Assembly: GCA_022843585.1 (NCBI GenBank)
Contig: JALHNJ010000009.1
Span: 62,001 to 126,000, forward strand
Origin: Chitinophagaceae bacterium
GTDB taxonomy: Bacteria; Bacteroidota; Bacteroidia; Chitinophagales; Chitinophagaceae
Length of the DNA: 64,000 nucleotides
Reading direction: 5' to 3'
In this document: in pieces, positions 2,396 through 5,424 of the stretch
Layout: each line of letters begins with the position of its first letter
Position numbering within the stretch: the stretch's first letter is position 1
Notes under the pieces: model-generated
Told to the model about the DNA's origin: nothing
Database searches by the model: none
What the model saw: the letters and a program-made list of their open reading frames with translations, nothing else
Position numbers and translations under genes: made by a program

Positions 2396-2860
2396 CTACA
2401 TCACTTTTACATTACGGCTAAAGCTTTCGTCGAGTGAAATAAAGGTTTCTGTTCGTTCGATACCTTTTATTTTTTGCAACTGATCGTGTAAAACAAAACG
2501 TAATTGTGTAATATCCTTGCAAACTATTTCTGCAAACATGCTGTAGTTGCCGGTTGTATAATTTAACCGCACTATTTCCGGAATTTTTTGGAGATCTTTT
2601 GCTACCGTATCATACAACGAACTTTCTTTAAGGTAAATACCAATGAAGGCGATCACATCATACCCCAGTTGTTTTAAATCTGCCTTCAACCTTGTACCTT
2701 TAACCACTCCTGCCTCCTGTAGTTTTTTGATACGAACATGAATGGTGCCGCCGGAAACAAATAGTTTTTTTCCGAGATCGGCGTAAGAGATTTCAGCATT
2801 CTCCATCATGTGATGAATGATCTGCAGATCGAGATTATCAAGATTTAATTTCGTTGCCAT
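2396..2860 (-). CDS. Lrp/AsnC family transcriptional regulator
   Basis: Leucine-responsive-protein-type regulator, expected to form dimers to octamers and respond to an amino acid. The N-terminal winged helix-turn-helix (about residues 5-55) includes NAEISYADLGKKLFVS and the recognition segment GGTIHVRIKKLQEAG; the C-terminal half (about 70-150) is the RAM ligand-binding and oligomerisation domain (GNYSMFAEI strand and a final ERTETFISL strand). At 154 aa it has the normal family length. The upstream side carries an AT-rich near-palindrome (2894-2914) that could be its own operator, as these proteins are often autoregulated. The neighbours do not reveal the target. Confidence 0.92.
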   Translation of the reverse strand: MATKLNLDNLDLQIIHHMMENAEISYADLGKKLFVSGGTIHVRIKKLQEAGVVKGTRLKADLKQLGYDVIAFIGIYLKESSLYDTVAKDLQKIPEIVRLNYTTGNYSMFAEIVCKDITQLRFVLHDQLQKIKGIERTETFISLDESFSRNVKVM

Positions 2861-2893
2861 TTTGTATATTGATTTTAGATATTATTCATAATA

Positions 2894-2914
2894 ATTATCA
2901 AATATTTGAATAAT
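2894..2914. promoter_or_regulatory. Putative Lrp-type operator
   Basis: A 21-base near-palindrome with core AAATATTT flanked by inverted ATTAT(C)/(G)AATAAT arms sits 34 bases upstream of the Lrp start and about 30 bases upstream of the -33 element of the RNA gene. AT-rich symmetric sites of this kind are typical of Lrp/AsnC operators. The assignment is by position and symmetry only. Confidence 0.4.
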
Positions 2915-2944
2915 TTCTATACTTTCAAAATATTTATTAGAAAA

Positions 2945-2977
2945 TTTGGAACGAAAAGCTTTTGAAGCCTATATTTG
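2945..2977 (+). promoter_or_regulatory. Promoter of the tRNA-like RNA gene
   Basis: TTTG (2945-2948) and TATATTTG (2970-2977) are separated by 21 bases, a good match to the Bacteroidota pattern TTTG-N19..21-TAnnTTTG. The predicted start is near 2982-2985, leaving a leader of about 35 bases before the tRNA-like domain. The leader contains a small GCC-GAAA-GGC hairpin (2991-3000). Confidence 0.65.
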
Positions 2978-3018
2978 TGTCGTCAACAACGCCGAAAGGC
3001 ACTAGTTCTTGATAATAC

Positions 3019-3197
3019 TGTGGGGTGATGAAATTGCGAAAGCATGGCAGACATACCCTCTTGTCTCGGGGGTGGGGAAAACAGGATAAACGTAGCATAG
3101 AGCCGTTTTGATAGCAATATCAAAACGACCGGGGTCGACCACCGAACTTTGTACTACAGCTAACTGCCCCGTGGAGGTTCGAACCCTCCCCCTACAG
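3019..3197 (+). ncRNA. tRNA-like structured RNA with a giant variable arm
   Basis: No protein explains this stretch. A tRNA-like fold can be drawn. Acceptor strands TGTGGGG (3019-3025) and CCCTACA (3190-3196) pair over 7 bp with one G-U, and G3197 is the discriminator; no CCA is encoded. A perfect T-arm, GGAGG-TTCGAAC-CCTCC, occupies 3173-3189. The D-arm resembles tRNA-Leu (ATG stem, GGCAGA, CAT) but its loop carries an extra TGC-GAAA-GCA mini-hairpin (3035-3044). The anticodon arm is CCCTC-TTGTCTC-GGGGG (3056-3072), placing GTC at 34-36 with T at position 37, where purines are almost universal. The variable region (3074-3172, about 99 bases) is closed by GGGG/CCCC and contains a perfect 10-bp stem capped by GCAA (3104-3127). 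It has its own promoter and an intrinsic terminator. I do not recognise the family. A very reduced tmRNA, a Y-RNA-like tRNA mimic or a degenerate tRNA are alternatives. Confidence 0.7.
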
Positions 3198-3203
3198 CAC
3201 TTT

Positions 3204-3232
3204 AAAAAGCCTCCGAAATTCGGAGGCTTTTT
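3204..3232 (+). terminator. Intrinsic terminator of the RNA gene
   Basis: AAAAAGCCTCCG and CGGAGGCTTTTT form a perfect 12-bp stem around a 5-base loop and end in a T-run. It begins seven bases after the discriminator base of the tRNA-like domain, fixing the 3' end of the transcript. Confidence 0.9.
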
Positions 3233-3299
3233 AATTTCCTCTCCGGCAATCCCTTTGAGCACTTTCATTGAAATAATATCTTGCACTGTCTTTCATTTA

Positions 3300-3307
3300 T
3301 AATTTTG
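3300..3307 (+). promoter_or_regulatory. -7 box for first DUF3078 gene
   Basis: TAATTTTG matches TAnnTTTG; transcription would start near 3312, about 14 bases ahead of the ATG at 3326. The -33 element is poor. Confidence 0.4.
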
Positions 3308-3325
3308 CAGCCAAAAAAATCAAGC

Positions 3326-4249
3326 ATGAAAATTATTTCAATCATTGTATGTACTCTTATTACTTTAATTACAGTGGCCCAGGATCAAAGTGTAAAAGCA
3401 TTGCAAGCCGAGTCGGGTAAAACAATAAAAAAAGATCCGGCTGATACCAGTAAAAAGAATTGGAGAAAGGGTGGTATCTATAGCCTGAATGTATCGCAGG
3501 CATCTTTAACGAACTGGGCTGCCGGTGGAGACGAATTTTCTCTTGCGGTTAATTCCCTCCTTAGCATGTATGCTTTTTACCAAAAAGACAAACACAGTTG
3601 GGACAATACATTTGACTTTAACCTCGGCTATGTAAAATCTACCAGTATCGGTGGAAGAAAAAATGATGACCGATTTGATCTCTTATCAAAATATGGATAT
3701 GCGCTAACTTCTAAACTTAATCTTGCGGGTTTGGTCAATCTTCGTTCGCAATTTTTTAAAGGTTACTCTTTTGATAATGTAAAAACTCTTTCCTCCAACT
3801 TTATGGCACCAGGATATTTGTTAGTGAGTGCGGGGCTTGATTATAAACCCAATAAAGCACTTTCTATTTATGTTTCCCCGCTAACAGCCCGTTGGGTAAT
3901 TGTAAGAGATACCGCATTATCCAATAAAGGTGCATATGGAGTAACACCGGGTAAAAAATCAAATTTGGAGATCGGTGCTTTTGCCTCCATCAATTATTTA
4001 AAAGAAATCTCCAAGAATATAACTTATAAAGCCCGGCTTGATTTATTTTCAAACTACAGAAGAAACCCGCAAAATGTTGATTTGTTTATGTCTAATATCC
4101 TGAATGTAAAATTGTCAAAAGTATTATCGGCTACCTGGGGTGTTGATCTTATTTATGATGATGATGTTAAATTATTTGGACCTAACAAAACTTCACCGGC
4201 CTTACAAGTAAAATCATTAGTAGGTATTGGATTGTTGATTAAGTTCTAA
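3326..4249 (+). CDS. DUF3078 secreted or outer-membrane protein (copy 1)
   Basis: A DUF3078-type protein of unknown function, typical of Bacteroidota and probably a small outer-membrane beta-barrel. I chose ATG 3326 over an upstream in-frame start at 3281 because it gives a clean signal peptide (MKIISIIVCTLITLITVAQ) and because the promoter box lies between the two. The mature protein has the family hallmark QASLTNWAAGGDEFSL near the N-terminus, then repeated amphipathic strands rich in aromatic residues, ending in a short strand (VGIGLLIKF) with a terminal Phe, as in barrel proteins. It is about half identical by eye to the next gene, so the two look like a tandem duplication. A terminator separates them. 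Confidence 0.82.
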   Translation: MKIISIIVCTLITLITVAQDQSVKALQAESGKTIKKDPADTSKKNWRKGGIYSLNVSQASLTNWAAGGDEFSLAVNSLLSMYAFYQKDKHSWDNTFDFNLGYVKSTSIGGRKNDDRFDLLSKYGYALTSKLNLAGLVNLRSQFFKGYSFDNVKTLSSNFMAPGYLLVSAGLDYKPNKALSIYVSPLTARWVIVRDTALSNKGAYGVTPGKKSNLEIGAFASINYLKEISKNITYKARLDLFSNYRRNPQNVDLFMSNILNVKLSKVLSATWGVDLIYDDDVKLFGPNKTSPALQVKSLVGIGLLIKF

Positions 4250-4282
4250 ACAATCGTTTGATATAATTTTATTCGCAATAAC

Positions 4283-4317
4283 ATGCTGCTTTTTTAACAG
4301 AAAGCAGCATTTTTTTT
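4283..4317 (+). terminator. Intrinsic terminator between the DUF3078 genes
   Basis: ATGCTGCTTT / AAAGCAGCAT form a 10-bp stem with an 8-base loop, followed by seven further T residues. The two duplicated genes therefore have separate transcripts. Confidence 0.85.
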
Positions 4318-4396
4318 ACAAACAGTCATTAGCATATTTATCTTTTAACATTCCTTATAAAATAAAATAGTTCCGCCATCTATTTATTCTCTCTTT

Positions 4397-4404
4397 TATA
4401 TTTG
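4397..4404 (+). promoter_or_regulatory. -7 box for second DUF3078 gene
   Basis: TATATTTG matches TAnnTTTG and would give a leader of roughly 85 bases before the ATG at 4495. No convincing -33 TTTG is visible. Confidence 0.35.
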
Positions 4405-4494
4405 CGCATATCCGTTATCCGCTAAAAACTTTTCTGTTTTTCTGCTTCTCTTATAAGCAGTATCCATATCACCACCAAAACCGAACTATTAAGT

Positions 4495-5424
4495 ATGAAA
4501 AAAGTATCAGTTCTTATTATTTTGCTTGCCAGTTGCCTAACTGTATTATCACAAGATGCAATTATTAAAAAGCTTCAGGTAGAATCGCTACGAACAATAA
4601 AAAAAGATATCCCGGACAGTACCTGGAAAAAATGGAAAGCAGGTGCATTGTACAATATCAATGTAGGTCAAAGTAGCCTGAGCAACTGGGCTGCCGGTGG
4701 CGATGATTTTTCATTAACCATTTCCACTTCGCTTAACCTGCACGGTTTTTATAAAAAGAAAAAACATAGCTGGGATAATACTTTAGATATAAACTTTGGC
4801 TATGTAAATACTACCAGCCTTGGAAGCCGTAAGAATGATGATCGGTTTGATTTTGTTTCCAAGTATGGCTATTCACTGGACAAACACTTAAATCTTGCAT
4901 CGCTTGTAAATTTCCGTTCGCAGTTTTTTAAAGGCTATACATACCATGATAATACGAAAAGTTTTGCATCAGCACTATTATCTCCCGCCTATGTAGTTAC
5001 AAGTTTGGGTATGGATTATAAAGCAGGTAAAAGTCTTTCCATTTTTGTTTCGCCAGTTACCTCCCGCTGGATAATTGTAAAAGATGATAGCCTCTCTGCC
5101 AGAGGTGAATATGGAGTAGTCCCCGGTTCACATAGCCTAAATCATCTTGGTGCTTTTGCAACTATCAATTATCAGAAAGCTTTCAACAAGTATGTATCAT
5201 ATAGGGGAAGGATAGATTTATTCTCCAACTATAAAAAAGATCCCCTGAATGCAGATTTATATATGACAAATTCTCTTTCAGCCAAAGTAGCAAAGATTCT
5301 TGCTTTTAGCTGGAACGTAGATATGATCTATGATGACGATGTAAAAGTATTTGGCAAAGAGAGTTCATCACCTGCTTTACAACTAAAATCAATAATAGGA
5401 GTTGGCCTGCAAATAAAAATATGA
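4495..5424 (+). CDS. DUF3078 secreted or outer-membrane protein (copy 2)
   Basis: Paralogue of the preceding gene and of the same unknown function. The N-terminus MKKVSVLIILLASCLTVLSQ is a signal peptide; LASC resembles a lipobox, but cleavage after LSQ parallels the other copy and is more likely. The hallmark SSLSNWAAGGDDFSL follows about residue 55. The spacing of conserved blocks (HSWDNT, GSRKNDDRFD, SRWIIVKD, NADLYMTNSL, IYDDDVK) matches copy 1 throughout, and the end is again a short beta strand (GVGLQIKI). An ancient tandem duplication with substantial divergence is inferred. Confidence 0.82.
   Translation: MKKVSVLIILLASCLTVLSQDAIIKKLQVESLRTIKKDIPDSTWKKWKAGALYNINVGQSSLSNWAAGGDDFSLTISTSLNLHGFYKKKKHSWDNTLDINFGYVNTTSLGSRKNDDRFDFVSKYGYSLDKHLNLASLVNFRSQFFKGYTYHDNTKSFASALLSPAYVVTSLGMDYKAGKSLSIFVSPVTSRWIIVKDDSLSARGEYGVVPGSHSLNHLGAFATINYQKAFNKYVSYRGRIDLFSNYKKDPLNADLYMTNSLSAKVAKILAFSWNVDMIYDDDVKVFGKESSSPALQLKSIIGVGLQIKI

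Follow-up and report, generated by a model that had tools for sequence, protein, structure and literature searches.

A tRNA-like RNA gene divergent from a gene for an AsnC-like regulator

The window, which is the whole 64,000-nucleotide stretch of DNA that we analyzed, contains a stand-alone gene for a tRNA-like RNA, preceded by a promoter-like box and followed by a terminator (Table 1). The mature RNA is predicted to consist of nucleotides 3019-3197, C74 at 3198, and an added CA. It has canonical tRNA features (G18G19, the TTC loop, and a 7-bp acceptor), and a CCA end made by addition is predicted. The D-stem is ATG/CAT (3028-3030/3052-3054), and the anticodon-like loop has G34, U35, and C36 at 3063-3065 (GTC), U37 at 3066, and C38 at 3067. 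The elements described in an earlier, sequence-only reading of this DNA (promoter, acceptor, D-arm insert, GTC and T37, variable arm and its hairpin, T-arm, and terminator) are all present in the window. Following the RNA, at 3281-5424, are two adjacent and mutually similar open reading frames of 322 and 309 amino acids.

Table 1. Positions of the RNA gene, its parts, and flanking features in the window.
Feature	Position	Strand	Basis or remark
Divergent AsnC-like regulator, Lrp family, 154 aa	2396-2860	-	profile and structure match
Promoter box TATATTTG	2970-2977	+	sequence
boxA-like AGTTCTTG in leader	3004-3011	+	sequence
tRNA-like RNA gene; starts at position -1 (3018), ends one base past C74	3018-3199	+	sequence, homologues, identity tally
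5' acceptor strand, U1-G7	3019-3025	+	U1, G2, and U3 invariant in 146/146 distinct copies
Leu-like D-arm with G18G19	3028-3054	+	optional TGC-GAAA-GCA insert at 3035-3044; D-stem covaries
Anticodon-like arm	3055-3073	+	loop TTGTCTC at 3061-3067
Giant variable arm	3074-3170	+	covariation
Variable-arm base, GGGG/CCCC	3074-3077/3167-3170	+	
Variable-arm CAG/CTG	3082-3084/3164-3166	+	
Conserved internal loop of variable arm	3085-3091/3158-3163	+	
Distal stem of variable arm	3092-3102/3147-3157	+	
GCAA-capped hairpin within variable arm, 9-10 bp in the window	3104-3127	+	sequence and length variable among copies
Small hairpin, loop GGTYGACCA	3130-3144	+	pattern search of copies
T-arm, loop TTCGAAC	3173-3189	+	covariation, identity tally
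3' acceptor strand, 66-72, with G73 (3197) and C74 (3198)	3190-3198	+	identity tally
Intrinsic terminator	3202-3234	+	sequence

Searches for known RNAs did not identify the gene. ARAGORN called no tRNA and no tmRNA over the window, and the window RNA matched no Rfam family at gathering score, as the sequence-only reading had anticipated. When 2700-3500 was searched permissively against Rfam, the 18 matches obtained were all well under gathering, and most were near the terminator or the next gene.

A conserved RNA family of Bacteroidota

The RNA is a member of a conserved tRNA-shaped RNA family of Bacteroidota, the reality of which we confirmed with homologues. BLASTN with nucleotides 3018-3200 gave matches in 138 of the 195 genomes of the window's family. 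We counted 136 of these as containing the RNA (RNA+) and left out two matches as weak (G028, E 9e-4; G062, E 7e-4). Sequence taken from 90 of the BLASTN places yielded 104 copies, 100 of them distinct; the window's own family is called f1 in copy counts. A covariance model had a match of at least 79 bits in 40 of 395 genomes of the phylum, and two background matches of the model that we checked were tRNA-Leu (39-56 bits). A pattern scan of GTDB genomes gave at least 120 loci. The matches listed include the genera Chitinophaga, Mucilaginibacter, Pedobacter, Hymenobacter, Pontibacter, Spirosoma, Dyadobacter, Cyclobacterium, and Algoriphagus, as well as Saprospiraceae and one Ignavibacteriales bacterium, and in all 80 titled GTDB loci among them the covariance model scored 81 bits or more. 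With stricter filters, the covariance model found no family member in the 59 genomes with a negative or weak BLASTN result; the best match there (45 bits) was 87 nt long and thus comparable in size to a class II tRNA.

The fold is supported by changes on both sides of its pairs. We aligned 50 sequences that were less than 90% identical and 160-190 nt long, leaving out one sequence at a contig edge. The alignment gave a cloverleaf with a giant variable arm, in which 97.5% of 2249 cells were paired and both sides had changed in 18 of 45 pairs. There were 155 doubly changed cells, compared to 42.8 in shuffles and at most 20 with the partners slid. RNAalifold, unaided, found 41 pairs, 16 with double changes, and left the D-stem unpaired. 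A second alignment, which was fitted to the model and comprised 102 matches in named genomes, had 509 doubly changed cells versus 141.4 in shuffles, and in it the D-stem covaried. We take the covariation among homologues to be decisive for the fold, and give less weight to the z-score of the window RNA folded singly (-2.4 relative to shuffles, 6 of 200 of which were equally good). Together, the homologues and the covariation bear out the earlier proposal of a stand-alone, tRNA-derived, class II-like RNA with a discriminator G.

Parts of the variable arm and the D-loop differ in how widely they are conserved. The internal-loop pattern of the variable arm was present in 96 of 100 f1 copies and 34 of 46 copies from other families. 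By pattern search, the GGTYGACCA loop was found in 95/100 f1, 12/46 other-family, 34/102 named-genome, and 45/56 viral copies. The GNRA-capped insert in the D-loop, which the sequence-only reading had pointed out, is present in the window and proved to be optional: only three of the 100 distinct f1 copies (the window, L018, and L022) have a long insert, and we rejected the hairpin as a mark of the family. Among the distinct viral copies, however, 20 of 56 have a long D-loop insert (e.g., L338:2551-2724), at the site of the window's GAAA hairpin.

Tandem copies of the RNA, two or three, recur (L031, L044, L060, L081, L128, and others). In some of these, the variable arm is strongly reduced and the copy is approximately 120 nt long.

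Based on its features, the RNA is not a tmRNA. Like tmRNA, it has tRNA-like ends and a large insert, but it has no conserved reading frame and it has a true D-stem and anticodon arm. The window's genome has its own tmRNA elsewhere (G000:C7:123223-123593, tag GNTQYAMAA), in agreement with the sequence-only reading, which had set tmRNA aside. That reading had also seen a short frame faintly recalling a tmRNA tag. This frame is not conserved among homologues, and we rejected a tmRNA with a short tag, also given the copies in which the variable arm is much reduced. More generally, it is highly improbable that the family belongs to the Y-RNA or tmRNA type or is a mobile regulatory RNA. Mimicry of tRNA and the presence of copies in phage tRNA arrays (below) would fit such an RNA, whereas the separate tmRNA, the lack of a conserved frame, the lack of an Rfam match over gathering, and the linkage to GatB (below) do not. 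The earlier suggestion of a Y-RNA mimic likewise found no support in the Rfam search, which presumably includes a Y-RNA-like model.

Synthesis of amino acids on tRNA is known; the RNA family described here is without a match in Rfam 15. We recognized no description of this RNA in the full-text literature, judged by titles and the openings of abstracts, a body of text that mostly lies outside subscription journals and preprints.

The acceptor end and the identity nucleotides

The gene encodes C74 and no further part of the CCA end. ARAGORN identified 47 tRNAs in the examined stretches of the window's genome, of which two had a full CCA, and base 74 was C in all 38 tRNA genes with a readable base 74. 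A passage in PMC5143459 describes Bacteroidetes tRNA genes as mostly lacking a templated CCA. Because the genome's tRNA genes template C74, we take the final conserved C of the RNA to be C74 and the constant G before it to be G73. The acceptor is therefore a canonical one of 7 bp, from U1-A72 to G7-C66, and 3018 is position -1; both the 7-bp pairing and the absence of an encoded CCA had been noted from the sequence. An acceptor of 8 bp with a discriminator C, in the style of tRNA-Sec or tRNA-His, was ruled out by the templated C74 and by copies in which the -1/73 pair is broken (A opposite G, 13/102).

A set of nucleotides in the acceptor and the anticodon loop is conserved throughout the family. 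Using canonical numbering, we tallied the 146 distinct copies that BLASTN, nhmmer, or the covariance model had detected. U1-A72, G2-C71, U3-A70, G73, C74, U35, C36, and C38 were invariant (146/146), counts that are inflated by the relatedness of the copies. G34 was present in 143, with C or U in the other three. Acceptor positions 4-7, the first two pairs of the D-stem, the variable arm, and the T-stem varied in the same copies. Position 10 was A in 122, T in 13, and G in 11, and the pair 11-24 was U-A in 131 and C-G in 15. The D-loop reads GGCAG (GGAAG in 1 of 50) and has no additional base after position 20. The marks of a decoding tRNA, U33 and a purine at 37, are not those of the family: position 33 was T in 92, C in 45, A in 7, and G in 2 (that is, not U in 54), and position 37 was T in 137, C in 6, and G in 3.

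These nucleotides resemble those of tRNA-Asp in the loop and those of tRNA-Asn in the acceptor. In the relevant passages of PMC9976931, the bacterial Asp identity set is G73, G10, G34, U35, C36, and C38, G1-C72 is crucial for Asp identity, and GatCAB needs U1-A72 for amidation, which G1-C72 and U20a prevent. The RNA matches the Asp set except for G10 (11/146), and has the GatCAB pair U1-A72 replacing the G1-C72 of tRNA-Asp. An ordinary tRNA-Asp(GUC) is present in the window's genome. Among 39 measured tRNAs of that genome, the chromosomal tRNA-Asn alone combines U1-A72 with G73.

The copies found by pattern gave similar results at the positions that the pattern leaves free. In this set (102 named-genome and 56 viral copies, with some genomes shared with the 146-copy set), G73 and G2-C71 were present in 158/158 and U1-A72 in 152/158. 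The pattern fixes positions 35, 36, and 38, and these are therefore no evidence in the 158 copies; two viral anticodon loops were misparsed in the tally. Position 34 was A, C, or U in 14 of the 102 cellular copies, and U33 was present in 53 of the 56 viral copies.

Position 34 is other than G at L125, L126, and L132, and copies with C34 or U34 have Glu-type triplets. The f9 genomes with C34 (G569 and G353) are without GlnRS and have an extra partial AsnRS-like match.

We regard it as very improbable that the RNA is a class II tRNA charged by SerRS, an enzyme that has no need of the anticodon loop. G73, G2-C71, and a large variable arm do belong to the bacterial Ser set (PMC9976931), but the Ser elements C72 and C11-G24 are missing in most copies (A72 in 146/146; C11-G24 in 15/146). 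The RNA is like the class II tRNAs (Leu, Ser) in its long variable arm and in a D-arm that resembles that of tRNA-Leu, and unlike them in its anticodon loop, acceptor end, and size.

Co-occurrence with GatB

The RNA and GatB co-occur in the clade of the window. That the RNA might join an Asp-type loop to a GatCAB-type acceptor was proposed ahead of the GatB search, and GatB was scored by its GatB_N domain alone. Across the 195 genomes of the window's family, 130 had both the RNA and GatB, 6 had only the RNA, 3 had only GatB, and 56 had neither (Fisher p 5e-38, without phylogenetic correction). Six of the nine discordant genomes are assemblies less than 90% complete. The association also holds between close relatives: in the window's own genus, G000 has both and G155 neither; in g11, G010 has both and G110 and G181 neither; and in g23, G022 and G119 have both and G189 neither. 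The discordant genomes G076, G078, and G128 are in g77, g79, and g38.

We found a similar association in a set of 80 genomes, consisting of 40 RNA+ genomes (all those with 79 bits or more in the phylum) and 40 genomes without the RNA (RNA-), hand-picked from the BLASTN and covariance model results. GatB was present in 40/40 RNA+ and 16/40 RNA- genomes. Within the window's class, the counts were 37/37 and 2/24, and the two RNA- genomes with GatB are without GlnRS. In other classes, GatB was present in 14 of 16 RNA- genomes, and the link between the RNA and GatB is therefore a trait of the window's clade. Nine of these 16 genomes had GatB, AsnRS, and GlnRS and no RNA (one GatB match was 160 bits).

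Decoding of Asn and Gln does not account for the retention of GatCAB. AsnRS was over the cut-off in 79 of 80 genomes, including 40/40 RNA+, and GatCAB is therefore dispensable for decoding of Asn. GlnRS was over the cut-off in 66 of 80 (34/40 RNA+, including the window's genome), so that 34 of the 40 RNA+ genomes have both synthetases. We rejected the explanation that GatCAB is kept merely for Gln or Asn decoding.

The prediction that RNA+ genomes lack an asparagine synthetase failed. An AsnB-type match was over the cut-off in 68 of 80 genomes and 35 of 40 RNA+ genomes, and AsnA in 6 of 80, three of which were RNA+; five RNA+ genomes had neither. A route through the RNA would thus often not be the only one, which speaks against strict replacement. 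One RNA- genome, G031, had no GatB, AsnA, or AsnB over the cut-off. The AsnB match was broken near model position 385, a form that we take to be the E. coli type, in each of the 13 RNA- genomes from f3, f4, and f5, but in no RNA+ genome among the matches listed; no conclusion was rested on this.

The AsnC-like gene and the intergenic region

A gene for an AsnC-like protein is the common neighbor of the RNA. The best solved match of the protein in the window was AsnC (2cg4), and its score of 164 bits was under the NCBIfam AsnC equivalog cut-off of 227. Of 124 loci, 105 had such a gene in divergent orientation to the RNA, at a median distance of 152 nt and with proteins 49-100% identical. Of the 19 loci without it, L006, L010, and L019 reach a contig edge, the stretch at L125 is short, and two places were counted twice (L111 in L137, L118 in L139). 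Within the examined stretches, no AsnC-like gene was beside the RNA in the f2 loci, part of the f8 loci, and the viral loci. An AsnC homologue was present, in either orientation, in 79 of 120 named-genome loci of 8 kb. Every other neighbor was common to at most 26 loci.

The intergenic region contains recurring motifs. We take TATATTTG to be a Bacteroidota-type promoter box, and 41 of 84 homologous loci, where 1.5 would be expected, have a related TAATATTG approximately 40 nt 5' of the RNA. In the leader, we liken AGTTCTTG to boxA; GTTCTT was found 5' of the RNA in 57 of the 84 loci, with about 4 expected. The palindrome TTGNAAWWWTTNCAA, with at most one mismatch, was between the AsnC gene and the RNA in 31 of 84 loci, versus 2.1 in resampled sequence (largest 8), for a pattern chosen post hoc, and presumably resembles the operators of the Lrp family. 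The sequence-only reading, correct in the tRNA-derived class of the RNA, had missed that its loop is of the Asp type and its acceptor of the Asn type, and had overlooked both the divergent AsnC gene and the association with GatB.

The neighborhood also bears on where an amino acid on the RNA might go. Aminoacyl-tRNA-dependent transferases are an established class of enzymes, and the identity nucleotides and the association with GatB would equally fit an RNA that is charged and amidated and that then passes Asn (or Asp) to an acceptor other than the ribosome, for example a peptide, a lipid, or a wall precursor. We consider this fairly unlikely, since no neighbor other than the AsnC-like gene is common to more than 26 loci and an AsnC-like regulator points to free asparagine.

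Copies on viral contigs

Copies of the RNA are present on contigs assigned to viruses. In IMG/VR, 66 contigs matched the pattern and 65 scored at least 67 bits; the 66th is incomplete at its end. L353 encodes phage RNA and DNA ligases, and the viral status of the other contigs is the IMG/VR assignment. ARAGORN called at least one tRNA in 16 of 18 viral loci and an ordinary tRNA-Asp in seven, and the largest set in the scanned loci was 26 genes, a tmRNA included. A distant BLASTN search of named phage and plasmid records gave no match, and origin from a named phage or plasmid was rejected on this basis, though the IMG/VR contigs carry the RNA.

Some viral forms are short (95-98 nt) and are missing the distal domain of the variable arm. 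ARAGORN called all three that were scanned (L329, L337, and L352) as tRNA-Asp, and the three short forms tested had no Rfam match at gathering. Forms of 95-96 nt at L319, L331, L352, L357, and L368 have A1-U72 and not U1-A72.

The short forms bear on two further readings. The tRNA-Asp calls, the GUC triplet, and U33 in 92/146 cellular and most viral copies could indicate a decoding tRNA for Asp codons, either an extra tRNA-Asp or a deliberate Asp-to-Asn mistranslator. However, the window's genome and 7 of the 18 scanned viral loci have an ordinary tRNA-Asp, position 37 is U, C, or G in 146/146, and more than a third of the 146 copies do not have U33, making a decoding role quite improbable. 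It is also unlikely that the RNA serves AspRS, GatCAB, or AsnC as a scaffold, decoy, or sensor, a role for which turnover as a substrate would not be required. The conserved internal loop of the variable arm looks like a protein site and the linkage to GatB is tight, but conservation is as strong in the acceptor end, G73 and C74 included, as in the anticodon loop, and the short viral forms do without the distal domain of the arm.

A proposed role in asparagine synthesis

We believe that the RNA family is probably specialized for tRNA-dependent synthesis of asparagine, through charging by AspRS, amidation by GatCAB, release of asparagine, and control by AsnC. Because the published identity rules match, we infer that ordinary AspRS would aspartylate the RNA via the Asp-type anticodon loop and G73, and that GatCAB would convert Asp-RNA to Asn-RNA via U1-A72 and the lack of an antideterminant in the D-loop. 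The absence of G10 from most copies and U1-A72 in place of G1-C72 count against charging by AspRS, as do the copies in which position 34 is other than G. The proposed route is also weakened by the AsnB-type and AsnA matches in RNA+ genomes, by the RNA- genomes with GatB, AsnRS, and GlnRS, by G031, by the discordant genomes of the window's family, and by the loci with no AsnC-like gene beside the RNA. Base 37, the unconserved base 33, and the giant variable arm suggest that the Asn-RNA would be kept out of decoding. The Asn-RNA would then release asparagine for use by AsnRS; this is the weakest step of the proposed mechanism, and we know of no enzyme for it. E. coli AsnC regulates asnA by the level of asparagine, and, given the adjacency of the genes, the divergent AsnC-like protein may by analogy tune the RNA to asparagine.

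We also lean, if only slightly, toward the RNA being a phylum-wide cofactor, such that AspRS, GatCAB, and a chimera of an Asp loop and an Asn acceptor make up an RNA-dependent asparagine synthetase under AsnC, with large phages having their own copies in tRNA arrays. If so, a tRNA-like molecule is kept for metabolism and not for decoding, and the retention of GatCAB in many Bacteroidota with both AsnRS and GlnRS would be explained. Two enzymes and one transcript would be enough to test directly the concept of a non-decoding tRNA as a biosynthetic cofactor. Full-length forms, where tested, escape ARAGORN and Rfam, despite the occurrence of the RNA in Chitinophaga, Mucilaginibacter, Spirosoma, Hymenobacter, and their relatives and in large phage-like contigs.

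The proposed route has counterparts among known systems. Staphylococcal tRNA-Gly for cell wall synthesis is a non-decoding tRNA used in biosynthesis, and the RNA would be like it in being reserved for a reaction outside translation, and unlike it in the amino acid, the enzyme, and a much stronger departure from the tRNA shape. Relative to tRNA-Asp(GUC), the RNA shares G34, U35, C36, C38, G73, and G2-C71, and differs in U1-A72 for G1-C72, the Leu-like D-arm, the giant variable arm, and U37. Passages in PMC4206432 describe Bdellovibrio, Deinococcus, and Thermus as keeping GatCAB beside AsnRS and GlnRS and making Asn on tRNA-Asn via a non-discriminating AspRS, and name Bacteroidetes among the clades with AsnRS, GlnRS, and GatCAB and no asparagine synthetase. 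As described there, Asp is placed on an RNA with U1-A72 and then amidated in genomes with AsnRS and GlnRS, which is also what we propose here. In those bacteria, however, the RNA is the decoding tRNA-Asn, whereas here it is a separate and apparently non-decoding RNA with a GUC loop, so that, unlike in those bacteria, ordinary AspRS should suffice.

Other tRNA arrays and a second tRNA-like RNA

The window's genome has 12 tRNA genes in 1.2 kb at L140 (G000 contig C11:145300-146560), with second copies of several isotypes, in what looks like a mobile or phage-type array. At L338:8203-8609 (-), on a contig that also carries the RNA reported here, there is a GOLLD RNA beside an array of 25 tRNAs.

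Two covariance model matches of 137-140 nt (37-38 bits), among the 59 genomes with a negative or weak BLASTN result, are a different RNA (L184:967-1103 (+) and L185:980-1119 (-), in the GatB-negative genomes G159 and G020). On these two stretches, there was no ARAGORN call on the RNA and no AsnC or GatB match. This second tRNA-like RNA has a GCG/CGC D-arm, a large variable arm, and an anticodon-like loop with UAAACU, and possibly represents a second family.
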